A stretch of 64,000 nt of DNA from Enterococcus hulanensis (GTDB taxonomy: Bacteria; Bacillota; Bacilli; Lactobacillales; Enterococcaceae), in assembly GCF_005405485.1 (NCBI RefSeq), contig NZ_BJED01000005.1, forward strand, positions 134,580 through 198,579. The letters run 5' to 3'. How positions within the stretch are numbered: the stretch's first letter is position 1; each line of letters opens with the position of its first letter. The notes below the pieces were generated by a model. That model saw nothing but the letters and a program-made list of their open reading frames with translations. It had not been told where the DNA came from and did not search any database. Below, piece after piece: positions 4,690-50,300 of the stretch. A program made the position numbers and the translations under genes.

Positions 4690-5463
4690 TTATTGCGCAG
4701 TATAACCACCATCAAGTAAAACAGCTTGTCCAGTTACACCCTTTGCTTTATCGCTAGCTAAGAAGGAAACATAATCAGCAATTTCTTGAACATCGATCAA
4801 ACGTTTTTGCGGTACGAGCGGGTAAAGAACCTCCTCTAAAACATTTTCCAATGGAATGCCGCGTGTTTTAGAAAGGTCTTCAAATTGTCCACGAACTAAT
4901 GGCGTGTCAACATAACCGGGACAGATAGCATTTACAGTGATACCGGAATCAGCAGCTTCTAAAGCCGCGACTTTAGTTAGACCGACAATCCCATGTTTTG
5001 CAGAGTTATAGGCAGATTTTCCAGCAAAACCGATTACGCCATTGATGGATGCCATATTGATGACCCGCCCGTGATTTTGTTTTTTCATCGTTGGAAATGC
5101 TCGCTTAATTGCGATAAATGGTGCGACTAACATGACTTTTAGCATGAATTCAAATTTTTCAGTTGGAAAATCTTCGATCATTGCCACATGTTGTAAACCA
5201 GCATTGTTCACTAAAATATCTAAACGTCCATATTTTTCAACTGTTTGGTCGATTGCTGCATTGATTTCTTCTTCTTTTGTTACATCACAAACGATTCCTA
5301 ATGATTCGTGCCCTTGTTTATTATAGTTAGCCACTTGTTCATCTAATTTCTCTTTGTTGATGTCGGAGAATACAACGATCTTTCCTTCGTGTAAGAATGT
5401 TTCTCCAATTTGCTTTCCAATACCGCTAGCAGCTCCTGTTACGAATGTGACTTCTTTAGACAT
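4690..5463 (-). CDS. bdhA: 3-hydroxybutyrate dehydrogenase (SDR family)
   Basis: Short-chain dehydrogenase of 257 residues. The cofactor motif is [13 protein letters not shown] at about residue 8, NNAG at about 88, the catalytic Ser lies in [10 protein letters not shown] and the YNSAKHG motif supplies Tyr and Lys. The sequence [14 protein letters not shown] followed by a long substrate loop is characteristic of D-3-hydroxybutyrate dehydrogenases, which oxidise 3-hydroxybutyrate to acetoacetate with NAD+. Its start overlaps the end of the CoA-transferase B gene, showing translational coupling. The pathway context (CoA transferase, thiolase) supports the specific function over a generic SDR. 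Confidence 0.88.
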
Positions 5464-6115
5464 TTTGCATCTTCTCCTTATGAATGTTTTTGATTAGTGG
5501 GACTTCTGTAACTGCTTGAATTTCTTCAAATGTAAAATCTGGATAAATTTCTGTTACTTCAACACCTTCCGAAGTAACTCGGAAGACACCCATTTCTGTG
5601 ATGATTAGATCCACGATTCCTTTAGCTGTCAAAGGTAGGGTACAATTTTTCAAAATTTTTGGTGTTCCTTTGCTTGTATGCTCCATTGCCACGATAACCT
5701 TTTTTGCACCAATTAATAAATCCATAGCCCCCCCCATGCCAGGGACCATTTTTCCAGGTATCAAATAATTGGCGATATTGCCATTTTGATCCACTTGCAG
5801 TGCTCCTAAAACTGTTACATCAACGTGACCACCGCGAATGATTCCAAAAGACGTACTACTATCGAAAAATGCTCCTCCGGGTTGGATCGAAACAGGTTGA
5901 CCTCCTGCGTTCACGATCGTTGGATTGATTTCTTCTGGAACTGGTCCAAGACCAATAAAACCATTTTCAGATTGTAAGGTCACATGTATGTCTTCGGGAA
6001 TGTAATTGGCGACTTTAGTAGGCAGTCCGATCCCTAAGTTGACTAGTGAGTGATCGGTTAATTCTTGAGCGACCCTTTTAGCGATGCGCTCTTGCATTTG
6101 TTCTTTCGTCAGCAT
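5456..6115 (-). CDS. atoA: acetoacetate CoA-transferase subunit B
   Basis: Beta subunit (219 residues) of a 3-oxoacid CoA-transferase. The active-site Glu lies in [12 protein letters not shown] at about residue 50, and the NLGIGLPT motif is near residue 26. With subunit A it moves CoA to acetoacetate to form acetoacetyl-CoA. It overlaps the subunit A gene by 7 bp and the dehydrogenase gene by 8 bp, so the three are translated as a coupled set. The CoA donor (acetyl-CoA or succinyl-CoA) cannot be told from the sequence, so atoA/scoB naming is interchangeable. Confidence 0.9.
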
Positions 6116-35332: not shown

Positions 35333-36403
35333 ATGCAAACAAAACCATTGTCACAGATCACACTTTTCACTATGGGGCGGGCGAATCTGGAGAAGCGCCT
35401 GGCGAAATTTTACGAAGATTCTTCCGATGCGGATTCGACGCTTCAATATTTGGTGGCGGTGCTGGTTCGGCAATGTTTGTGCATCAGTGATTTCTCGGAT
35501 TTTTGCGGGGATTTGGTTCGGGAGATCCTTTTATTTGCGGAGCCGTCAGATGTGCTGCGGAAGCTTGCTCCGTTGTTTCGGGCGTCCTTTACATCCGGCA
35601 AAGAATGGGAAACGGTTACTCGCCGTCTCTATAAAAATAAGAATGAATATCATCGCTACAATAATCGTGTGAGTGATAATAAGAAGTATTTATTTAGCAG
35701 CACAACGCCACCCGAAAAAATGGATGGCCAATATAAAGTCGTCTCGACCTTTGAGGATGCAGTGGGGAAGATCCATACGTGGAGCTTACGAGATGCCGAC
35801 TCGAAATCTTCCGGAATGAAAATCGATGCGGCGTTAGAGCTGCTGTCGTCTTTGACGATCTTTGAAAAGGACGGCATCCGCCGTTTTGTTAAGTTGGAAA
35901 ATTCCGATATCTTCAACTGCACTCGCTATCCGAAAGTCAGACATGGAGTGGTCTTGGAGACGTCTGATCAAAATTCGGTGGTGGAAGAGTCTCCAAGTCA
36001 AACTCCAGCACAGCAGCCAGCAGCTTTCGACTTCAGCAACCTGAGTGATGCAGAAAAACTCGCATTAGTGAAAATGCTTTTACCAGAAGGAATGGTGCTG
36101 ACAGACGCTCGGATGACGGAGCTTGGAGATGAAACCAAGTCCGAAAGTCCTGTCACCATCGAACAAAAGGCTGAACCAAACAGCGCTGGATCAACTTCGG
36201 CAGTCAAAGAAAAACCAAAAGCCGAAAGCAAGAAGCCCGCAGAAATTCCCGTACACAAGAAAAACTCCTATTCCAACTACCAAAAGCCGAAAAGTGAGAA
36301 ACAGAAAAAGCGCGAGGAAAAGGACGATCTGATGATGAAAAGAGAAAAAGGCAAGGGCGGGGTTGGAAAAAAGAAAGATCGAAAACGCAATCGAAGGAAA
36401 TAG
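35333..36403 (+). CDS. hypothetical protein with strongly basic C terminus
   Basis: Protein of 356 residues that I do not recognise. Residues 1-200 look globular and mostly helical (ANLEKRLAKFYEDSSDADSTLQYLVAVLVRQCLCISDFSDF; later MKIDAALELLSSLTIFEKDGIRRFV). A proline/glutamine-rich linker follows, and the last 100 residues are highly charged, ending KGGVGKKKDRKRNRRK, suggestive of nucleic acid or ribosome contact. It starts after AAGGAG and lies next to the CRISPR island without being obviously part of it. Confidence 0.65.
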   Translation: MQTKPLSQITLFTMGRANLEKRLAKFYEDSSDADSTLQYLVAVLVRQCLCISDFSDFCGDLVREILLFAEPSDVLRKLAPLFRASFTSGKEWETVTRRLYKNKNEYHRYNNRVSDNKKYLFSSTTPPEKMDGQYKVVSTFEDAVGKIHTWSLRDADSKSSGMKIDAALELLSSLTIFEKDGIRRFVKLENSDIFNCTRYPKVRHGVVLETSDQNSVVEESPSQTPAQQPAAFDFSNLSDAEKLALVKMLLPEGMVLTDARMTELGDETKSESPVTIEQKAEPNSAGSTSAVKEKPKAESKKPAEIPVHKKNSYSNYQKPKSEKQKKREEKDDLMMKREKGKGGVGKKKDRKRNRRK

Positions 36404-36802
36404 GTTGCGTTGATTGAGGATGTTTTTGGTGAAATAGAAATTAAAAAAAATGGTACCTTACGAGGGTTTATTTGTTGTGGAGAAAATCACTTTAGGAGGT
36501 CATAAATAACTGAGCGACCATACAATATCTTGCGGATAATTGTATGGTTGTTTGGCGTTCGAATGTATAACCACATTTAATGAAAGGCGAGCTGATGATA
36601 GATTACTATGGTCGGTTTTGTCGATCTGTCGACCATAATTAAGTGGAAAAACCTGTAGTTACGACAGCAACAGATAATAGTTGATAGAAAAAGATTTTCT
36701 CTGAAAGAGATTGTTATGTTTGATGAGTGGTAAGAGAGTAAAGTTGCGATCGACAGAAAAGTGCTACTAAGACCGCGTGGTTACAGGTATAATTTAAGAC
36801 GG
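36404..36802 (+). promoter_or_regulatory. leader of CRISPR array 1
   Basis: No gene is evident. The proximal part has CTGTCG at 36626-36631, TTACGACAG at 36659-36667 and CGACAG at 36751-36756, the last ending 46 bp before the first repeat; TATAAT at 36788-36793 lies 9 bp before the repeat without a recognisable -35. The same sites at the same spacing occur in the other two leaders. Farther upstream a hairpin (ACCATACAAT 36517-36526 with its complement 36539-36548) and an AGGAGGT with no ORF behind it (36494-36500) are seen. Confidence 0.75.
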
Positions 36803-37464
36803 GATCAAAATATAAAAGAGTGGAATGTAAATACTGTAAATGATCACAAGTATGTGTTACTGAATCAATCAAAATATAAAAGAGTGGAATGTAAATTTTC
36901 GAGGTGCCAGAGATCGACACAGCGCCCAAATGATCAAAATATAAAAGAGTGGAATGTAAATGTTTCACCAGCAAAACCAGCAGCCGCTGTTTTCAATATC
37001 AAAATCTAAAAGAATGGAATGTAAATTCTTGATTAGTGAAGTTTCTGTTCACCGCTAAAGTATCAAAATATAAAAGAGTGGAATGTAAATGTCATTGCCT
37101 ATGAACTCGGCTACATTACTTTTTCATCGAAATCTAAAAGAGTGGAATGTAAATCCTGGATCAATCGATTTCAAAATATCCTTAATGGAATCAAAATCTA
37201 AAAGAGTGGAATGTAAATGAACCATGAAACGAGAATTTACAACAACTCGCAAAGATCAAAATCTAAAAGAATGGAATGTAAATATCGGTAAGGTGTCCGA
37301 AGTTGGTGAGATCGTCTACATCAAAATCTAAAAGAATGGAATGTAAATGGAATTGATTCGATAGCTTTTTTTGCAGCAGCATAAGATCAAAATCTAAAAA
37401 TAGAAGTAAAGACCATGTAGTAGCCCTAAGGTATTTAGTCAAATCTAAAACGAGATAAAATAAA
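36803..37464 (+). CRISPR. CRISPR array 1 (nine good repeats, decayed distal end)
   Basis: Repeats of 29-30 bp ending GTGGAATGTAAAT or ATGGAATGTAAAT start at 36803, 36867, 36932, 36997, 37061, 37125, 37189, 37254 and 37319, with spacers of about 34-36 bp. Degenerate repeats follow at 37385 and about 37438. The 5' half varies: ATCAAAATATAAAAG in repeats 1, 2, 3 and 5, ATCAAAATCTAAAAG in the others. The loss of repeat identity at the distal end confirms the leader is at 36560-36802. The repeat type fits subtype I-B. Confidence 0.95.
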
Positions 37465-37466
37465 AA

Positions 37467-37513
37467 AGCAGATTATATATAGCTTAATAGCTAAGTATAA
37501 TCTACTTTCTTTT
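37467..37513. terminator. bidirectional terminator after array 1
   Basis: An 18-bp stem with two or three mismatches (37467-37484 with 37489-37506), loop TAAT, then TTCTTTT. It would end array 1 transcription on the plus strand and also the mini-CRISPR RNA that approaches on the minus strand. Confidence 0.8.
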
Positions 37514-37589
37514 ATCCAATAATTTTTAGATTTTTGAAAATCAAAGTATTACTTATTTACATTCCAATAGTTTTAGATTCAACTCGTAG
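37509..37589 (-). ncRNA. mini-CRISPR, CreR/CreA-like guide RNA candidate
   Basis: On the minus strand a well-kept repeat (37555-37580, with the intact end GGAATGTAAAT that forms the crRNA handle) is followed by a 23-base spacer (37532-37554) and a degenerate second repeat (about 37511-37531, ATCTAAAAATTATTGG). A candidate promoter lies just before it: TTTACT (37618-37623) and TATCAT (37594-37599), 18 bp apart. The terminator at 37467-37506 lies behind it. The guide partly matches DNA next to the cas operon promoter. Two repeats, one short spacer and partial target match are the hallmarks of CreA/CreR RNAs. Confidence 0.6.
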
Positions 37590-37593
37590 TTTG

Positions 37594-37623
37594 ATGATAT
37601 CATTTTTATCATAAAGTAGTAAA
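37594..37623 (-). promoter_or_regulatory. candidate promoter of the mini-CRISPR RNA
   Basis: On the minus strand TTTACT (37618-37623) and TATCAT (37594-37599) are 18 bp apart, 13 bp before the first repeat of the mini-CRISPR, so the RNA would begin close to that repeat. Confidence 0.45.
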
Positions 37624-37664
37624 TGATTCTCTCCGATATTAATCATCTTCTAAACTCCTATATT

Positions 37665-37684
37665 AAATCTAAATATTACTTAGG
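37665..37684 (-). promoter_or_regulatory. partial protospacer of the mini-CRISPR guide
   Basis: Read on the minus strand, CCT (37684-37682) precedes AAGTAATA (37681-37674), which equals the first eight bases of the mini-CRISPR guide; positions 10, 11 and 13-17 also match, giving 15 of 17. It ends 11 bp before the -35 of the cas operon promoter. CCT is a functional PAM in some I-B systems. Bound Cascade here would hinder RNA polymerase. Confidence 0.55.
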
Positions 37685-37694
37685 TTAAAAAATA

Positions 37695-37723
37695 TTGACA
37701 AAGCACGATGATACTATTATTCT
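37695..37723 (+). promoter_or_regulatory. probable cas operon promoter
   Basis: TTGACA (37695-37700) and TATTCT (37718-37723) are 17 bp apart, the same box pair as the lysR promoter at 8104. No other good promoter is seen before cas6, so the upstream small gene and all cas genes are probably read from here. Confidence 0.65.
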
Positions 37724-37781
37724 AATAGTATACAATTCCGATGGTTACCATAGAATCAACATCAAGCTAGGAGGGATGGTT

Positions 37782-38329
37782 ATGGATTTTTCAAAATAAA
37801 TCAGTTTTTATGGTTGTTTCTGATTTTTGTGATACTTAAAATTTTATATAGTATTACCAGATTTGTATATAAGAGCTACTTTAAAGATAAGTTGAATAAG
37901 AGAATGTTTATATCGCAAAATGGAGAGCTGTGGTTGCGGGTCAAATATAAAGATAACAAACTAAATAATCTAAAAACTATTAATAAAGAAAATGAAAAGT
38001 ATAAACTTTATAATGAAAACCAAAACTGTAGATTAGGAAAAGGAACCATTTACATTGATAGAAACATGGGATCAATACAAGTCACTACCGGAAAAGGCGT
38101 TGCTTATCAGAACATAGGAGAGTGTACCTTTTTAACTAAAGTACAACGATATAAGGACTTAATGATAGGTGCGGGTATTTCAGAAGAAGATATTAAGGCA
38201 GTAGCTTTACATCCAATGGACGTTGATGTAAGAGAATCATTTTTAAAGAAATACGGAATAGAATTAGCAAAAATTATGGTAGATGTTGCTGGAAATACAG
38301 TTAGTTTGATATCACTTTTGAAAAAGTAA
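37782..38329 (+). pseudogene. membrane-anchored unknown protein before cas6, frameshifted near its start
   Basis: AGGAGG (37770-37775) and ATG 37782 open a frame that stops after MDFSK at 37797-37799. The next frame reads GFFKINQFLWLFLIFVILKILY..., so one extra T in the T run at 37787-37791 would give MDFFKINQFLW... and a protein of about 183 residues. It has one N-terminal membrane helix, a basic stretch and a soluble domain (LGKGTIYIDRNMGSIQVTTGKGVAYQNIG) ending LISLLKK. A TTG at 37814 in the open frame has no ribosome binding site. Family not recognised. It could be a true loss, phase variation, slippage or a sequencing error. Confidence 0.6.
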
Positions 38330-38341
38330 ATTTTAACGAGA

Positions 38342-38365
38342 AAATCTAAAATAATGGAGGTAAAC
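38342..38365 (+). promoter_or_regulatory. degenerate CRISPR repeat containing the cas6 ribosome binding site
   Basis: AAATCTAAAATAATGGAGG followed by TAAAC resembles the array repeats over most of its length, but GGAATG has become GGAGG, a good Shine-Dalgarno 8 bp before the cas6 ATG. Cas6 binds such repeats, so it might bind its own leader mRNA. The alternative is a leftover repeat put to use. Confidence 0.5.
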
Positions 38366-38367
38366 TA

Positions 38368-39129
38368 ATGCGTTTCAAAATTAATTTAGAGATTGTTTCA
38401 CCAAATGAAGTAGCAGAGATACCGATCAAGTATCAATCTATCTTTCTATCATTATTAAAACGCGGATTAGAAAATGCAGCACCGGAAGTCTATAAAGAAT
38501 TATATGAAAAAAATAAAGAAAAACTATTTTCCCAGGCAGTCATTTTTAAAGGTGCAAAATTTGAAAAAGATAGAATCTTACTTCAAACACCAACAATTAC
38601 TTACTTATTTTCAACGCCCAAAGCCGATTTAGCGATGGCTGTATACAATGCTTTTATTCATTTAAAAGAAATGAAAGCGATTCCTTTTGTGGGCGGGCTA
38701 AAAATAAAAGTTAAATCAGTATCAACCATTTATCAAGAGACAATCACCGAGAAGCAAGTTGTTTTTCAAGCGGTGTCCCCCATCTTAGCAAGAGATCATA
38801 ATCGTGAAACAAGGAAAGATTGGTTTTTAGATTTTTCTGATGAGAAATATGAAGGCGTATTGAAACAAAATTTGATTAACCGTTTAGTTCCGGAAATGGG
38901 AAGAGGGGTTCGGTTTGACATTGAGAATCTAACAATCAAGCCACTAAACATGAAAAAGACCGTAACGAAAGCCTACGAAAAATTCTACCAAGGAGCGATT
39001 GGCACGATTGAACTAACCGGAGAACCTTACCTGTTGAATGCGATTCGTGATGTCGGCTTAGGTTCTAAAACTGGACTTTATTTTGGGTACTTAAACCAAG
39101 TAGCGCAAGGTGGTGAGCAACGTGACTGA
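38368..39129 (+). CDS. cas6: CRISPR-associated endoribonuclease Cas6 (type I-B)
   Basis: Protein of 253 residues that cuts the precursor crRNA at the 3' side of each repeat and, in I-B systems, remains with Cascade. It has two ferredoxin-like halves (MRFKINLEIVSPNEV at the start) and the C-terminal glycine-rich loop GLGSKTGLYFGYL (about 231-243) that defines Cas6. The ATG lies 8 bp after GGAGG in a repeat-like leader. The catalytic His is not obvious; H38-like residues are missing, but Cas6 catalytic sites vary. It overlaps cas8b by 8 bp. Confidence 0.92.
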   Translation: MRFKINLEIVSPNEVAEIPIKYQSIFLSLLKRGLENAAPEVYKELYEKNKEKLFSQAVIFKGAKFEKDRILLQTPTITYLFSTPKADLAMAVYNAFIHLKEMKAIPFVGGLKIKVKSVSTIYQETITEKQVVFQAVSPILARDHNRETRKDWFLDFSDEKYEGVLKQNLINRLVPEMGRGVRFDIENLTIKPLNMKKTVTKAYEKFYQGAIGTIELTGEPYLLNAIRDVGLGSKTGLYFGYLNQVAQGGEQRD

Positions 39130-40793
39130 GCGTATGCTAAAAGATAAAATAGAATTTCGTTTAAATTCGTGGATGGAGAATGCAGCGGTTTGCGGGTTGG
39201 TGAATATTCTTGGTGAGGACAAGGTCACAATCAAAGAACAGAGTGTAGAAGTACCGTTAGAAGAATTACGGAATTTTGAAGAGAGCTATTTTTCATATTT
39301 TGCGACTCAGTATAAGAAGTTGTCCTCATTAAATAAAGTATTCGCTTATGAGGATGAGATGAATCGCCACCAACAAGAAGACTTTTCTCACTTTGATCAA
39401 AAAGATTATGAGCAGCTGCAAAAATATCTTGCTGATTTGAAACGGTATGGAGAAAGTAATAGTTATCTTGCTGTTTATCCATTGATTGATTCTGCTATTG
39501 ATATTGTTTCGTTAATTAAGCAAGCAAAAGTTGAAAAACTAAAAAAAGGCGAATTTGATCAAGCTCGTGAACAGGTTATTGAGCGGGTAAAAAGAATCTA
39601 TCAGATACTAACTCAGATCTTTGCTTACTATCATCGTGAAGATGTGCAGCGCTATTTAGCAGCTAAAATTCAAATTTATTCAGTTATCAACAAAGGCTAC
39701 AACGATGTTTCTTTTTTGAATCGACAGGAAAGTAAGGGTGATTTTTTCGAGAAGTATCATGATTATTTCGTTGAATCAATGTTTTCCTATTTAGAAGAGA
39801 ATCATGAAAAGGATAAATTGTCTTGTACAAACTGCGGACATCCAATAAAAAAAGGCGATATTTCGTACAGCTTCATCAATCAAGCGGGGTACGATGCAAA
39901 TCGAAAGCAAAGCAATGCTTGGGATTTCACGAATGATTTGTTTATGTGTCCAGTCTGCCGCTTAATGTACACCTGCATTCCTGCTGGTTTTACGTATGTC
40001 TATAATCAAGGGATGTTTGTAAATGATAATCACTCGGTAAGGACTTTGCTCAATGTAAATACGGGTATTCGTCTAAATGTGCTAAGTCTGAACAAAACTG
40101 AGGTAAAAGCGATCGATACCTATGCTGCATTGATTCGTACCTTACAAGATTCGATGAATCGACAGACACATCGTGAGCTGCAGGATATCCAAGTAGTGCG
40201 TTTTGAAAATGAACGTTATTACTTTAATCTTTTGCCCAAACATATTTTAAAAACGATTAATAAATCAAAGGAGCAACTGCCAGAATTATTCAATGCAGGT
40301 TTTTCTTTAAACGGTGAGTATCGAAACCTCTATAAAGAAATAATTACTCGATTAATGAACAATACGAATTTATTTTCACTGATTTATCAGGTATTGCGAG
40401 CAAAAGGTACTGGCGGACAAGTTTATGCAAATACCTATCACATAATGAAAATGATCGAAATCAATCAAAAATTTTTAGAGGAGCTGATTCATGTGGAAGA
40501 GTTAACATCAGAAATGCTAGACAAGATTCGACGTGATGGTTATTTCTTGAAAAAGGAATACGCAAATAAGAATAAAGCAGATTCCATTGGCCTTAGATTA
40601 TTGAATGCATTAAAAGCGAACAATAAAGACGCATTCATGGATATGCTGCTAAACAGTTATATGTATTTAAATAAAAAAGTTCCTAAATACTTTACAGACA
40701 TTTTTTTGGATGATGAACAATTTAAAACGATTGGGTATTGTTTCGTTACAGGAATGATCGGAGAAGCTTACAAATCTGAAGGGGGAAATGATA

Positions 40794-40801
<8 letters not shown>
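39122..40801 (+). CDS. cas8b: Cascade large subunit Cas8b (Cst1-like)
   Basis: Protein of about 559 residues. A four-cysteine zinc finger (CTNCGHPI near residue 238 and CPVCRLMYTC near 282) in the first half is typical of Cst1/Cas8b large subunits that read the PAM in I-B Cascade. GTG 39122 is preferred over GTG 39110 because AAGGTGG lies 6 bp before it; it overlaps the cas6 stop. No HD or helicase motifs are present. Its stop overlaps the cas7 start by 8 bp. Confidence 0.85.
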
Positions 40802-42420
<1,619 letters not shown>

Positions 42421-42428
42421 GAGGAACT

Positions 42429-44705
42429 ATGAGCGATCAATTTTGGGCAAAATCATCTGGAGAAACCATCGTTCATCACACGCAGCAGCTATTAACCAAC
42501 TATGACCAAATAAGAGATTATTATCCGGAGATTCCAGTGAATTGGGATCTCCTTCGTCTTATTTGCCAGTATCATGATCTTGGAAAAATGAATCATCTGT
42601 TTCAGGAGAAAATTCGAGAAGGTGTAATGAGAAAAGAGGGAGAGATCCCTCATGCTTTATTGAGTATTGCCTTTTTTCCAATTAAGCAGCTCAGGGAACA
42701 TTATTCACAGGGCGAGTTAAAAGCAGCGGTCTATGCGATTGCACTACATCATGAACGAAATTTTTCTCAGATTGAAATGGATCAATACAAGCATGAGATA
42801 GCCTTGTTAAAAGAACCTGCCGAAAGTTTTTTATTCGAGGAGATAGGATTAAGTAAACCCATCGATATAAAACGGCCATCGGTAAAATATTATTCACTTA
42901 AACATAAGCTAAGTAGTGGTGATGAATGCTTTGGAGATTACGTAAAATTAAAGGGATTACTGAATCGTATCGATTATACCGCTAGTGGTGGTTATAAAAT
43001 AGAATATCCGGCAGACTTTCTAAATAAAAATATGCCGAAAGTACGTGAAAGCTGGCGGGAAAAACACTCTGATCCTTCGATTGATTGGAATGAGATGCAA
43101 AAATATGTGCAGGTTCATCAAGAAGATAATCTCATTGTTATTGGACAGACTGGTCTAGGAAAAACGGAAGCCGGTTTATTGTGGATCGGAGATAATAAAG
43201 GGTTCTTTACCCTACCGTTACGTACGGCGATCAATGCCATTTATGAGCGTATTCGTAAAGGGATCAGTGATGAAGATAAGTATCAAGAACAAGTTGGAAT
43301 CCTACATTCAGATAGTTTAGCCGTTTTGTTAGCAGAGCAAGAAGAAAATAAGGAAGTGGAACTAGATCAATTAGAAAGCTATCTTACTGAAACGCGCGGG
43401 TGGTCATTACCGCTAACCATTACTACATTGGATCAAACGTTTGATTTTGTATATCATTACGCCGGTTTTGAACAAAAGCTGGCGACTTTTGCCTATTCAA
43501 AGGTTGTGATCGATGAGATTCAGATGTACTCTCCAGATTTGTTGGCGTATCTGATTAAGGGACTGAAAGAGATTCAAGATTTTGGCGGGAAATTTTTAGT
43601 GATGACAGCGACATTGCCGCCATACCTTTTGGATCTTTTCGAAAAAAGAGGATTGAATTGGAAAATGAACGATCAACCTTTCTTGAATCAAGGATTATTG
43701 GAACGTCATCATCTGCAAATTTTAGAAGAAGGCATCTCTGCAGAGACTGTTGCAGAATTGTATCACTCAGGGAATTTATTGGTGATCTGCAACACGGTTC
43801 GCAAAGCAAAAGAAATCTATCAAGAATTGCAGAAGTTGGTTGATGATGTACCAATTCATTTGATCCATAGCCAGTTTATTCGTAAAGATCGGCAGGATAA
43901 AGAGAGCGCTATTCAGAAATTTGCTGATGAAAAACAAGTAGGTATCTGGGTAGCAACTCAAGTTGTTGAAGCGTCATTAGATATTGACTTTGATTTGTTA
44001 GTAACAGAGCTCTCTGAATTAAATGGATTGTTCCAGCGAATGGGGCGATGTTATCGGAAGCGACCATTAGCTGAATGCAAGCAGCCAAATGTTTATGTGT
44101 TTGATGGCGGCGAAAATGTGACCAGCGGAATCAGCAACAGCGAACAAGCGGTAGTTCATCAAGAGATATTTAGTTTATCGAAGGAAGCGTTAAGAAAAAA
44201 AGGAACAGGGATTTTTCACGAATTAGACAAGATGAGTTTGATCGAACAGACCTATACAACAGAAAAAATGAAGTCAACAGCATATTATGAACGAATAGAG
44301 ACAATGCTGCATTGGCTGTCAGCGATTGAAGATGATAATAAAAATCCTGCGGAAGTGCGGAAACTTTTCCGAAATATCCAAAGTCGAAACATTATTCCCG
44401 AAAGTGTCTACACAGCGTTTAGAGGAGAGATTGATGATTGTATAAGAATTCTTTCATCCAGTTTAAGAGAGTTGGAATCAACAGACGAAAAAAATCTGCG
44501 AATGTTTAAGCGAAAAAAGAAAGCGGAGCTAGAAAATTATATGATGGCGATCCCAGAGTGGCTCTTTAGAAAATGCCTTAAACAAAATCAAGTTCGTTGT
44601 GAGCAAATCGGTCGTTTCGATCAAATCTTTTTCGTTGAAGGAAAATACGAGAGTGAAATAGGCTTCCAAGTATTGAAAGGAGAGGAAGAAAGCAACTTCT
44701 TCTAG
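42429..44705 (+). CDS. cas3: CRISPR-associated nuclease-helicase Cas3
   Basis: Protein of 758 residues, full length, with an N-terminal HD nuclease (HHTQQLL, YHDLGKMN, PHALLS and ALHHER, residues 12-110) and a superfamily 2 helicase: Walker A GQTGLGKTE (about 240), DEIQ (about 361) in place of DEAH, MTATLP (about 390), and motif VI QRMGRCYRK (about 537). It is recruited to Cascade-bound DNA and degrades it. AGGAGG precedes ATG 42429. All key motifs seem intact, so interference should work. Confidence 0.95.
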   Translation: MSDQFWAKSSGETIVHHTQQLLTNYDQIRDYYPEIPVNWDLLRLICQYHDLGKMNHLFQEKIREGVMRKEGEIPHALLSIAFFPIKQLREHYSQGELKAAVYAIALHHERNFSQIEMDQYKHEIALLKEPAESFLFEEIGLSKPIDIKRPSVKYYSLKHKLSSGDECFGDYVKLKGLLNRIDYTASGGYKIEYPADFLNKNMPKVRESWREKHSDPSIDWNEMQKYVQVHQEDNLIVIGQTGLGKTEAGLLWIGDNKGFFTLPLRTAINAIYERIRKGISDEDKYQEQVGILHSDSLAVLLAEQEENKEVELDQLESYLTETRGWSLPLTITTLDQTFDFVYHYAGFEQKLATFAYSKVVIDEIQMYSPDLLAYLIKGLKEIQDFGGKFLVMTATLPPYLLDLFEKRGLNWKMNDQPFLNQGLLERHHLQILEEGISAETVAELYHSGNLLVICNTVRKAKEIYQELQKLVDDVPIHLIHSQFIRKDRQDKESAIQKFADEKQVGIWVATQVVEASLDIDFDLLVTELSELNGLFQRMGRCYRKRPLAECKQPNVYVFDGGENVTSGISNSEQAVVHQEIFSLSKEALRKKGTGIFHELDKMSLIEQTYTTEKMKSTAYYERIETMLHWLSAIEDDNKNPAEVRKLFRNIQSRNIIPESVYTAFRGEIDDCIRILSSSLRELESTDEKNLRMFKRKKKAELENYMMAIPEWLFRKCLKQNQVRCEQIGRFDQIFFVEGKYESEIGFQVLKGEEESNFF

Positions 44706-44714
44706 GTGATAATA

Positions 44715-45203
44715 ATGAAGATTACTGGAAATATGATCAACTATTACTTCGTATGCCAAAGAAAGCTGTGGCTATTTTCCCAGGGACTTCAATATGAAGA
44801 GGAAAATGAAAATGTCCAGTTAGGAAAGCTATTGGATACTAGCAGCTATAAAGATAAACGGAAGCAAATCATGTTGGATGGAACAATCAATATTGATTTT
44901 CTAGAAGAGTGGAAAGTCCTGCATGAAGTTAAAAAGTCACGTGCTATTGAACCTGCCGCCATTTGGCAACTAAGATACTATTTGTACTATTTGCAAGAAA
45001 AGGGTGTTCCTGTAGAAAAAGGCTATATTGATTATCCGAAGCTCAGGGAGCGGCTAGAAGTAACTTTGGACGAGGAAAAAAAGAATGAGTTAGAAGAAAT
45101 TATTGAAGCCATTGAAACGGTGGTCACTCAAAATGACGCGCCAAAAGCTGAAAAAAAGAAACTCTGCACAAAGTGTGCGTATTACGATTATTGTTTTATT
45201 TAG
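44715..45203 (+). CDS. cas4: CRISPR adaptation nuclease Cas4
   Basis: Protein of 162 residues, the size of type I Cas4, a PD-(D/E)xK nuclease with a 4Fe-4S cluster. It has an N-terminal Cys (YYFVCQRKLW), nuclease residues in GTINIDFL and LHEVKKSRAIEPAAIWQLRYYLYYL, and C-terminal CTKCAYYDYC supplying three Cys. It selects spacers with a proper PAM. ATG 44715 follows AGGTGA; a GTG at 44706 overlaps the ribosome binding site. Confidence 0.92.
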   Translation: MKITGNMINYYFVCQRKLWLFSQGLQYEEENENVQLGKLLDTSSYKDKRKQIMLDGTINIDFLEEWKVLHEVKKSRAIEPAAIWQLRYYLYYLQEKGVPVEKGYIDYPKLRERLEVTLDEEKKNELEEIIEAIETVVTQNDAPKAEKKKLCTKCAYYDYCFI

Positions 45204-45215
45204 GAGGTGTGCAAA

Positions 45216-46205
45216 ATAGAAAGTTACTATTTATACTCTAACGGAACGTTGAGCCGAAAAGACAATGTTGTTCGAATGGAAACACCGGATGGCCGCAGGA
45301 AAGATCTAAAGATCGAGATGACGCGAGATATCTATTTATTTGGTGAGGTTACAACGAATACAAAGTGTTTAAACTATCTTTCAGAAATGAAAATCCCTGT
45401 TCATTTTTTTAATTATTATGGTTATTACACAGGAACCTTTTATCCACGTGAGAAAAATGTATCTGGGAAGTTACTTGTCCAACAAGTTTGTTATTCCGTT
45501 GAAGAAGAGAAACGAATTGTTTTGGCAAAACAATTTGTAGATGCTGCGACAGCGAATTGTTTACGTAACTTGCAATACTACCGTCGTCGAGGAAAAGAAG
45601 TCGAAACACAGATTGCCGATATGGAGGCTGTTAGAAAGAGAATTCCGCGCGCAGATGAAGTAGATGAACTTATGGGGTTAGAAGGAAACATCCATCAAAT
45701 CTATTATAGTGCTTGGGAAACAATTTTTAATGATGAGGTAGAGTTTAAGTCGCGAGTCCGCCGTCCGCCAGATAATATGGTCAATGCTCTAATCTCGTAT
45801 TTGAATATGTTGACTTATAGCGCGTGTTTATCAGAGATTTATGTTAGTCAGCTCAATCCTACAATCAGCTACCTTCATAGTAATTCTGAACGGAGATTCT
45901 CATTATCTCTGGATATTGCAGAAATTTTTAAACCGTTGATTGTTGATCGCTTAATTTTTTCTGTGATCAATAAAAAGATTATCACTGAAAAAGACTTTGA
46001 ACAGGGATCAAATGGAAACTATTTGAAGCAAAGCGGACAACAAAAGATATTACGTCAGTTTGATGAACGTTTAAATAAAACGATTCGTCATCGAGAACTT
46101 AAAAGAAATGTATCTTATCGAAAATTAATGCGTTTAGAATGCTACAAATTGATTAAACACCTAATGGGTGACAAAGAATACGAACCTTTTAAAATTTGGT
46201 GGTGA
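45216..46205 (+). CDS. cas1: CRISPR integrase Cas1 with apparent ATA start
   Basis: Protein of about 330 residues that inserts spacers with Cas2. The usual Cas1 beginning (ESYYLYSNGTLSRKDN) starts one codon after ATA 45216, which lies 8 bp after a perfect AGGAGG (45202-45207). The only standard start in frame, GTG 45207, overlaps this ribosome binding site. Catalytic residues are present: Glu in LEGNIHQIYYSAWE (about 160), His in YLHSNSERRFSLSLDIAEIFKP (about 225) and Glu in IAEIFKPL. The start could still be GTG with 3 extra residues. Confidence 0.9.
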   Translation: MESYYLYSNGTLSRKDNVVRMETPDGRRKDLKIEMTRDIYLFGEVTTNTKCLNYLSEMKIPVHFFNYYGYYTGTFYPREKNVSGKLLVQQVCYSVEEEKRIVLAKQFVDAATANCLRNLQYYRRRGKEVETQIADMEAVRKRIPRADEVDELMGLEGNIHQIYYSAWETIFNDEVEFKSRVRRPPDNMVNALISYLNMLTYSACLSEIYVSQLNPTISYLHSNSERRFSLSLDIAEIFKPLIVDRLIFSVINKKIITEKDFEQGSNGNYLKQSGQQKILRQFDERLNKTIRHRELKRNVSYRKLMRLECYKLIKHLMGDKEYEPFKIWW

Positions 46206-46210
46206 AAGTG

Positions 46211-46492
46211 ATGTATGTAATTCTAGTCTATGATATTTCTTTAGAAGATAAAGGAGCTCGTGTATTAAATCGAGTATTTAAAATCTGTAAAAAATATTTG
46301 AGTCATGTACAAAAATCAGTTTTTGAAGGAGAAATCACGCCAGCAAAACTAATGAAATTAGAGCAGGAATTAAAAGAGTATGTTCGTGAAGACCTAGATT
46401 CAATCCTGATTTTCAAAAACTCAAATAAAAAATGGCTAAAAAAAGAATATATTGGAATTGATGGAACAGAAATGGTATCGAATTTCTTTTAG
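46211..46492 (+). CDS. cas2: CRISPR adaptation protein Cas2
   Basis: Small ferredoxin-fold protein of 93 residues beginning MYVILVYDIS, with KYLSHVQKSVFEGE and DSILIFKNS. It bridges Cas1 dimers in the spacer integrase. ATG 46211 follows GGTGGTGAAAG; 15 additional in-frame bases upstream are not conserved. It is the last cas gene, and its stop is only 9 bp from the first conserved box of the array 2 leader. Confidence 0.95.
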   Translation: MYVILVYDISLEDKGARVLNRVFKICKKYLSHVQKSVFEGEITPAKLMKLEQELKEYVREDLDSILIFKNSNKKWLKKEYIGIDGTEMVSNFF

Positions 46493-48573: not shown

Positions 48574-48921
48574 GTGAATAGAGAACAAGAGACTGAAAAA
48601 CAAAAAGTTGTCTACATATTACCGTCCACGGCAGTAAGTGCGCCCATGAGCCGAATGTTTGTTTTGTCTCAATATCGGGAGCCGCTCAAAAGAATGCAGG
48701 TCTGTTTTGGCGAGCAGTATCTAGTTAAGTCGGATTTTTCAGATAATATAAAGAATTTTCAAGACGATACCATTTATTTGATTCCTGAGCAATTTAGAAA
48801 TGTGTTGAATATGGAAAAAATTGCGAAAGGAATTATGGTGCCTTCGAATATTTTTTCTGATGAAGTTTTAAATGATTTGCGTCGTAAGGTCGCTGTTTTT
48901 CAGATACGACGACCGATCTAA
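48574..48921 (+). CDS. unknown small protein between CRISPR arrays 2 and 3
   Basis: Protein of 115 residues starting at GTG 48574, beginning NREQETEKQKVVYILPSTAVSAPMSR. The pattern looks like a small alpha/beta fold: strands VVYILPS, TIYLIPEQF and KVAVFQI. Its ribosome binding site AAAGGGAG sits in a repeat-like segment (48553-48573, TTTAAAAGGGAGTGTAAAT), and the gene is followed by another repeat remnant (48916-48952). I do not recognise the family. The location suggests a CRISPR accessory or passenger gene. Confidence 0.65.
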   Translation: MNREQETEKQKVVYILPSTAVSAPMSRMFVLSQYREPLKRMQVCFGEQYLVKSDFSDNIKNFQDDTIYLIPEQFRNVLNMEKIAKGIMVPSNIFSDEVLNDLRRKVAVFQIRRPI

Positions 48922-48952
48922 AAGAGTAGGTATAAAAACAGTAAAATGTAAA
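48916..48952 (+). repeat. repeat remnant after the unknown gene
   Basis: GATCTAAAAGAGTAGG and, 10 bp later, GTAAAATGTAAAT match the two halves of the array 3 repeat with a short insertion between. Confidence 0.5.
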
Positions 48953-49012
48953 TGATTGTTTCAGTATTAGGTGAGAAGACATGAAAACAAAAACGAAGGA
49001 TGACGGAAAGCT

Positions 49013-49558
49013 ATGAATAAGACTCTAGATAAGATTGAACGTTTAGTATTAGATGCGGAAGATAAAGTGGTTCGTGATTTTCTAATTGAGTTATTAAAGC
49101 GGGACAGGGAGTTGGCACAACGCTTTACTAGACGCATCTCGTCAAAGATTACAGAAAATGATGTACGGCAACTAGAACGCAGAATTGACAAAGTTATTCA
49201 TCGGCATGCGGGGTATGAAAATTATCTCGAATATGATCAAATAGAGAAATTTGTAGCTGATTTAATGATGCTCATTACTGAAGAAATCGGTCCTTTAGTA
49301 AAGAAAAAAGCAAATCTTGCGGCTTTTAAATTAGTGAATTACATTATATTAGAAGTTAGAAAAGTTGATATTGATGATTCAGAAGGAGAATTGTTTGAAG
49401 TGTCTTCTGAGTGTCAATATATTTGGGAAGACATTCTTAAAAATGCGACAACGCAGGAAAAAGAGAATATGTATCTCTGGTTTAAAATACAACTAGACCA
49501 GTATAAATATTATTTTGGTTATTCTGAGATAGAAGTAATTTGTGAGAAATACTTTTAA
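49013..49558 (+). CDS. unknown helical protein between CRISPR arrays 2 and 3
   Basis: Protein of 181 residues, predicted to be almost all helical (TLDKIERLVLDAEDKVVRDFLIELLKRDRELAQRF; later IEKFVADLMMLITEEIGPLVKKKANLAAFKLVNYIILEV). The phrase VDIDDSEGELFEVSSECQYIWEDIL recalls helical-repeat regions found next to SWIM zinc fingers in Firmicutes, but no zinc finger is present. ATG 49013 follows GGAAAG. It is followed by the array 3 leader. Function unknown; position suggests an accessory to the CRISPR system. Confidence 0.65.
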   Translation: MNKTLDKIERLVLDAEDKVVRDFLIELLKRDRELAQRFTRRISSKITENDVRQLERRIDKVIHRHAGYENYLEYDQIEKFVADLMMLITEEIGPLVKKKANLAAFKLVNYIILEVRKVDIDDSEGELFEVSSECQYIWEDILKNATTQEKENMYLWFKIQLDQYKYYFGYSEIEVICEKYF

Positions 49559-49816
49559 AGGTTGCGAGATATGTTAGAAGCATGATAATAAAACATATAC
49601 TAGTTTTAGACGGACGGGAGTTTGTTGGCAATAATTAATCTGTCGACCTTAAAAACATAGAAAATCCCATAGTTACGACAGCATTAAAAAAACATTGACA
49701 TAGAAAGGCTTCCTCAGATGAATCGTGTTATTTTTGATTAGTAATTGGGGAATAGACTAGAGATCGACAGAAAAGTGTCATTAGGACCTAGTAATTATTG
49801 GTATAATTTAAGGCGG
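49559..49816 (+). promoter_or_regulatory. leader of CRISPR array 3
   Basis: It carries CTGTCG (49640-49645), TTACGACAG (49673-49681) and CGACAG (49765-49770), then TATAAT (49802-49807) 9 bp before the first repeat. The spacing is identical to array 1, and the last 50 bp are closely similar to those of array 1. Confidence 0.8.
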
Positions 49817-50300
49817 GATCTAAATCTAAAAGAGTGGAATGTAAATTGTTTAGCCTAGGCGGACAAGTGATCCCATTAAAAATCTAAATCTAAAAGAGTG
49901 GAATGTAAATCGACTTAAGTGGCTTCCCACCTTTTGTGACGGCTTCATCTAAATCTAAAAGAGTGGAATGTAAATTGCATTTCTTCAAAGGTTTTAAACT
50001 CCATCATTTTCATCTAAATCTAAAAGAGTGGAATGTAAATCAAGAAAGAGCTGACTGGATCACTAAGCAATTCAATATCTAAATCTAAAAGAGTGGAATG
50101 TAAATGTGATTGCAGTTATCCGCTGAGCAGTGGAAACAACAGTCTAAATCTAAAAGAGTGGAATGTAAATAAAGTTATTGAAGATGCTACCTTTGATGCA
50201 ACCTTCATCTAAATCTAAAATAATAGAATAAGAATTTCAAATGAATATGGTCTTAGTGGTCGCCGCCAGTCATCTAAACCCAAAACCACTGGAATACTCT
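49817..50300 (+). CRISPR. CRISPR array 3 (six good repeats, decayed distal end)
   Basis: Repeats beginning ATCTAAATCTAAAAGAG and ending TGGAATGTAAAT start at 49817, 49881, 49946, 50011, 50076 and 50141. Degenerate repeats follow at 50206 (TAATAGAATAAGAATTT) and about 50271 (CATCTAAACCCAAAACC). The repeat is intermediate between those of arrays 1 and 2. Spacers are 34-36 bp. The terminal copies mark the old end. Confidence 0.95.

Follow-up and report, generated by a model that had tools for sequence, protein, structure and literature searches.

Adjacent to the type I-B cas operon of Enterococcus hulanensis, a mini-array (37580-37510) is found which, judged by its sequence, is probably a CreR-type guide gene whose RNA would steer Cascade to repress its own cas operon. 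Positions refer to the window, i.e., the whole stretch of 64,000 nucleotides that was analysed. Among the lines of sequence evidence that point to this reading, the comparison with relatives is the strongest.

Anatomy of the Mini-Array

The mini-array is located on the minus strand, with CRISPR array 1 on one side and the cas operon on the other (Table 1). Its first degenerate repeat, psiR1, agrees with the comparison array repeat at 18 of 27 positions and in the handle at 8/8; read from the minus strand, its 3' end is ...TTGGAATGTAAAT at 37555. When copies in the genome were counted at up to three mismatches, one was found on the minus strand (the psiR1 copy) and 27 on the plus strand. The second repeat, psiR2, begins with ATCTAAAAATTATTGG at 37531. 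Thus far, the earlier note's description of a minus-strand repeat, a 23-base guide and a degenerate second repeat was confirmed by direct reading, with the end of psiR2 at 37510. The locus combines anatomical features of two known systems, namely two divergent degenerate repeats with the handle kept in psiR1 (8/8, vs 3/8 in psiR2), as in CreTA, and a degenerate-repeat mini-array that adjoins the cas operon and could, by its anatomy, yield a crRNA-like RNA, as in CreR.

Two further elements had escaped the earlier note. One is a small minus-strand ORF with a ribosome-binding site; the other is a hairpin after psiR2 (37511-37462), with a predicted stability of -23.3 kcal/mol (z -7.19) that was equalled by 0 of 200 shuffles. 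A simple terminator scan of the region listed no terminator, this hairpin included.

Table 1. Features of the mini-array region and of the neighbouring cas operon (window positions).
Feature	Position	Strand	Remarks
CRISPR array 1	36805..37403	+	convergent with the mini-array
Terminator-like hairpin and T-rich tail	37462..37511	-	predicted 3' end of the guide RNA; overlaps the psiR2 tail
psiR2, second degenerate repeat	37510..37531	-	AATCTAAAA part retained; handle bases degraded, 3/8
Guide AAGTAATACTTTGATTTTCAAAA	37532..37554	-	23 bases, vs 34-37 for the 43 array spacers of the window
psiR1, first degenerate repeat	37555..37580	-	last 8 bases ATGTAAAT intact; 5' handle of the predicted guide RNA
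29-codon small ORF, AGGAG upstream	37557..37646	-	stop codon inside psiR1, in repeat GGAATGTAA
Predicted guide-RNA promoter, TTTACT, 18-base spacer, TATCAT	37594..37623	-	TG ahead of TATCAT; consensus match only
Target (protospacer)	37659..37681	-	good match 37681-37665; mismatches at guide positions 9 and 12
Weaker promoter match, TTGTCA, 17-base spacer, TAATAT	37673..37701	-	9/12, near chance; -10 inside the target
CCT in PAM position	37682..37684	-	CCN PAM supported by protospacers and C. difficile literature
Predicted cas-operon promoter, TTGACA, 17-base spacer, TATTCT	37695..37723	+	10/12 consensus
First gene after the promoter	37776..38329	+	N-terminus hydrophobic (by eye); stop soon after ATG; open from TTG 37814
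Type I-B cas operon, cas6-cas8b-cas7-cas5-cas3-cas4-cas1-cas2	38368..46492	+	predicted regulated genes

Target Site and Predicted cas Promoter

Directly after the CCT, and on the same strand as the guide, the target reads AAGTAATATTTAGATTT (37681-37665). Guide positions 1-8 are matched contiguously, followed by 10-11 and 13-17, which amounts to 15 of 17. The 8-base seed match, the CCT, the 15/17 count, the two mismatches and the TTGACA nearby had all been claimed before and hold upon direct reading. TTGACA occupies 37695-37700 and TATTCT starts at 37718; the gap between the PAM and TTGACA is 10 bp. Although the pair is the best plus-strand promoter candidate within 36400-38400, promoter matches of all grades on both strands number 15 versus 11.2 (sd 3.1) expected, so that the match is not proof; the cas and the guide promoters are predictions from consensus matches whose number is near chance. 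Within the target, TAAATCTAAATAT (37664-37676) is identical to 13 bases of the array-2 repeat; by this likeness, an old repeat is a possible origin of the target.

In 5000 dinucleotide shuffles of the guide, 15/17 was never attained at any CCN site of the 795-bp region (p 2e-4), and 12 was the highest number of matches that any of the 43 real array spacers had at these sites. When the seed run is counted instead, with positions 6 and 12 ignored, a score of 8 results for the guide (p 0.005) and of 10 for the top array spacer; since the run of the spacer exceeds that of the guide, the seed run alone is not decisive. In the regions of two relatives, an array spacer of the window ties with the guide of that region, at 7 by the seed-run measure (L009) and at 11 by the match measure (L007r). 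The pattern CCN-AAGTAATANTTNGATTT has a single occurrence in the 4.74-Mb genome. Given the shuffles, this single occurrence and the cross-locus control described below, a chance match was rejected.

The PAM assignment was examined with protospacers of the genome's arrays. CCN flanks five of eight, including all three with 30 matches, which carry CCG (L020, 30/35), CCC (L021, 30/36) and CCA (L025, 30/36). Among the five weaker ones, CCN is present in L026 (CCG, 28/36) and L023 (CCA, 26/36), while three do not fit (L022, GTA, 28/36; L024, GTA, 26/36; L027, GAA, 24/36); the weak hits are perhaps no genuine protospacers. No match of array 2 to plasmids was obtained, and three of the five spacer-seed scans of viral contigs were without any match. 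Arrays 2 and 3 showed matches to Klebsiella phages. For the type I-B system of C. difficile, the available part of PMC6079278 gives CCA and CCT as the commonest PAMs, with CCC, CCG and TCA being frequent. The earlier proposal that CCT is a plausible I-B PAM agrees both with the three best protospacers and with these printed motifs, as far as that part of the source goes.

Comparison with Relatives

The window belongs to a family of 14 loci which we take to be Enterococcaceae. By hand, a mini-array was located at most 1.5 kb before cas6 in eight of these 14 loci, and none was seen within that distance in the other six (L003, L050/L011, L014, L004/L012, L017, L018). For seven of the eight, the own region contains a CCN-flanked target, matched at 15/17 in the window and L019, at 14/17 in Enterococcus raffinosus, L016r and L005r (11 contiguous in the latter), and at 12/17 in L006 and L007r. 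Several first mismatches coincide with the positions that are free in CreA: they fall on positions 6 and 12 in L006 and L016r, on 6 in L007r, and on 12 in L019 and L005r, and the L006 and L007r guides, mismatched at 6, are matched throughout 1-5 and 7-11. By the match measure without positions 6 and 12, shuffle p values are 2e-4 for the window, L009 and L019, 4e-4 for L005r, 2.8e-3 for L006, 3.2e-3 for L016r, 1.3e-2 for L007r, and 0.83 for L010. The handle pattern varies in this eight-locus table, with both L006 repeats keeping 6/8.

When every guide was paired with every region, the own cells of seven loci gave seed runs of 7-16, and no off-diagonal cell went beyond 6 apart from one, the L005r guide on the L010 region, with 12; if all matches are counted, 12 of 15 is attained in some off-diagonal cells, the same value as in the own cell of L006. 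The L010 guide has no nearby target, and none with a CC PAM in its 19.9-kb region. Upstream of the L010 cas6, a CCT-GTATATTTTTT site is present, which is the target of the L005r guide and is unmatched by L010's own; the guide-target pair of L010 may have come apart.

The Cas6 of the window is 87% identical to that of E. raffinosus N17, and the mini-arrays of the window and E. raffinosus share 73% identity over 91 bases and, at that level of similarity, look orthologous. The two loci differ in the guide as well as in the target, and within each of them the guide continues to match its target, as selection on pairing predicts. Of the ten seed bases (1-5, 7-11), nine are matched in either case, with the mismatch at position 9 in the window and at 8 in E. 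raffinosus. From the PAM to a TTGA-type -35 match, the distance is 10 bp in the window and 9 bp in E. raffinosus, where an equally scored alternative promoter match overlaps the target.

A blind scan extended the comparison to 36 regions of about 1.5 kb before cas6, comprising the 14 from the window's family and 22 from further relatives, for which 42 places were listed and 12 of them left out. Every base run after a handle-like octamer was taken as a guide candidate, and a hit was defined as a CCN site elsewhere in the region with 10/10 matches at positions 1-5 and 7-11, or with 9/10 and at least 13/17. Own-region hits were obtained for 13 of 36 regions (nine with 10/10 and four with 9/10, the window among the latter), versus 39/1260 in the cross-locus control; base-shuffled regions gave 2/180 with 10/10 and 4/180 with at least 9/10 and 13/17. 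Once flanking repeat motifs were demanded on either side, a candidate was left in 16 of 36 regions, and the own target was present for 13 of these 16, compared to four of 560 cross pairings; L010, L066 and L067 have mini-array candidates without a target in their own region. The corresponding Fisher p of 1e-20 is optimistic, because the handle and repeat motifs were picked after the first eight loci and some genomes look like close kin; as these apparent kin are among the 22 genomes, the loci are not fully independent. The contrast of proportions, not the p value, is the point that carries weight. A comparison of mini-array, target and promoter in related genomes had been suggested in the earlier note, and its outcome supports the CreR-like reading put forward there: guides differ by lineage, and 13 of 16 candidates find a match at their own site.

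Among the relatives, some loci show peculiarities of their own. In L004/L012 (E. hermanniensis), cas6 is in two pieces through a stop or a frame change, and no mini-array was seen ahead of it. L038 has a repeat-like stretch 2.2 kb before cas6. A second mini-array copy at 5264 of L039 was dropped as a likely assembly chimera with adaptor-like flanks; in positions 5000-5600 of this Enterococcus sp. 10A9 scaffold, the second cas6-upstream copy is flanked by CTGTCTCTTATACACATCT, presumably adaptor-derived.

Predicted Mode of Action

According to the CreR-type reading, the guide RNA would start near 37588 and end at the hairpin, and would be trimmed by Cas6 to the 8-base handle plus the guide. Cascade loaded with this guide would bind the target and leave it uncut, owing to the incomplete match and the short guide, and would obstruct RNA polymerase. 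Once Cascade is drawn off by regular crRNAs or by phage inhibitors, repression would ease and more Cas protein would be made. As the predicted promoters of guide and cas operon point away from each other on either side of the target, the guide may curb its own transcription too. The target is situated outside the -35/-10 core, and blocking may, thus, be weak; the seed mismatch at position 9 of the window may be offset by the matches at 13-17.

Alternative Readings

A wider version of this scheme assumes a joint switch, in which Cascade at one site between divergent promoters would hold down the cas operon, the membrane gene at its head and the transcript of the guide itself. In that case, a continuum would run from CreR to CreTA-style addiction modules, and the locus would be such a module in which the toxin has decayed and the guide has been retained. 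We consider this version unlikely. Counted toward it are small hydrophobic ORFs that hold the position of the membrane gene in other genera. Such ORFs, 47-67 codons in length, are found between target and cas6 in L053, L061, L063 and L071, where they have a ribosome-binding site and encode hydrophobic segments; those of L061 and L063 resemble each other, none of the four has a Pfam match, and by their make-up they are candidates for regulated membrane peptides. The same scan listed none in L006, L007 and L057.

These small ORFs would also suit an antitoxin guide of the CreTA/CrePA kind, with Cascade silencing a toxin encoded either by the 29-codon ORF (37646-37557) or by the membrane gene before cas6, a reading we regard as quite improbable. 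The 29-codon ORF, with its ribosome-binding site and with the -10 of the weak promoter in the target, has a CreTA-like layout; however, inspection by eye did not show it in E. raffinosus, and, also by eye, it contains no consecutive ATA or AGA/AGG codons, i.e., the rare tandem codons of CreTA. Both observations weaken the case for a CreTA toxin in this ORF, which is perhaps incidental. Regarding the membrane gene, its early stop speaks against a toxin, as does E. raffinosus, in which no ORF of 100 codons holds this position; the open part gave no KilA-N, the typical protein toxin of CrePA, in a Pfam scan. A protein search with this gene returned only the window's own protein. Moreover, only about 26-92 bases separate the target from cas6 in L005r, L016r, L019 and L077, which leaves little room for a toxin gene and favours cas regulation. 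Of the "CreR/CreA-like" label in the earlier note, the CreR-like part is supported by the cross-locus contrast (13/16 vs 4/560); for CreA in the strict sense of a toxin's antitoxin, no toxin is recognised.

Degraded repeats in AT-rich sequence, the 13 bases overlapping the target that are identical to part of the array-2 repeat, and the L010 guide without a nearby match would all fit the defunct remains of a former CRISPR array whose promoter match arose by chance. The guide shuffles, the single genome occurrence and the contrast between own and cross pairings speak against such a relic, of which it is also not expected that targets are still matched while guides turn over; we rate this reading as very improbable. 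Finally, a self-targeting spacer or a Racr-like anti-CRISPR RNA that occupies Cas6 or Cascade and regulates no promoter is scarcely credible, for although binding to Cas6 and Cascade is expected of a repeat-like unit that stands apart from an array, this unit adjoins the cas genes and its own target, and its guide part, beyond the repeat alone, tracks the region across lineages.

Relation to Known Cascade-Guiding RNAs

The primary source on CreR, a cas-regulating crRNA-like RNA, is reportedly Liu et al. 2023, Cell Host Microbe 31:1481. As described in the available parts of PMC12737573 and PMC12948488, CreR represses its own cas promoter and senses both crRNA load and anti-CRISPRs, and it is already in print as widespread. 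As a rule, CreR has no toxin gene coupled to it; at the window locus, the small ORF and the disrupted membrane gene are close by, neither of them a recognised toxin. Common to CreR and the window locus are a crRNA-like guide beside the cas operon with a partial match to the operon's own promoter region and Cascade-mediated autorepression, which is predicted here. Unlike CreR, the window locus belongs to a type I-B system of Enterococcus and relatives, with a CCN PAM, minus-strand orientation, a target upstream of the predicted -35 box and a seed mismatch at position 9. By title, no CreR work in Enterococcus was among the matches listed, a search for CreR and Enterococcus as whole words gave only papers that are unrelated by title and abstract, and no literature on Enterococcus raffinosus type I-B CRISPR was found.

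For CreA, Cascade with a two-repeat guide is described to repress a promoter through a seed of positions 1-5 and 7-11, with 6 and 12 free, and single changes at critical seed positions of Haloarcula CreA abolished function (available part of PMC8501985). Its psiR1 keeps the Cas5-binding handle and its psiR2 largely loses it, according to the accessible portion of PMC9458426. The window locus resembles CreA in its two degenerate repeats, in the handle being in psiR1 only and in pairing with positions 6 and 12 free, but differs in its lack of a recognised tRNA-sequestering toxin ORF, in having the cas operon as its predicted regulated unit, and in matching 9/10 seed bases. With CrePA, in which Cascade and a crRNA-like RNA repress a promoter (PMC12737573, in the part available), it shares this type of promoter repression, again as a prediction; unlike in CrePA, there is no KilA-N match and the gene behind the promoter has an early stop. 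Racr, a solitary-repeat anti-CRISPR RNA (PMC10651486, in the portion at hand), is a solitary unit from a virus or mobile element; the present unit has array 1 on one side and the cas genes on the other.

On the grounds of sequence, effector-level sensing by guide RNA is now also predicted for type I-B systems in Enterococcus and in further genera of the same order. The finding also provides 13 natural guide-target pairs; since they differ in sequence, the pairing rule of a CCN PAM and a seed of 1-5 plus 7-11 with 6 and 12 free is testable by swaps. If the CreR-type reading is true, cas expression in these bacteria would go up under phage inhibitors that act on Cascade.

CRISPR Arrays of the Window

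By script count, the three arrays of the window comprise 9, 28 and 6 spacers of 34-37 bases each, 43 in total. The leader-like stretches of arrays 1 and 3 (36624-36832 and 49638-49846) are 74% identical. Arrays 2 and 3 are separated by two ORFs (48574-49558), the second of which has a weak match to the PADLOC candidate family PDC-S62 (E 2.9e-4).
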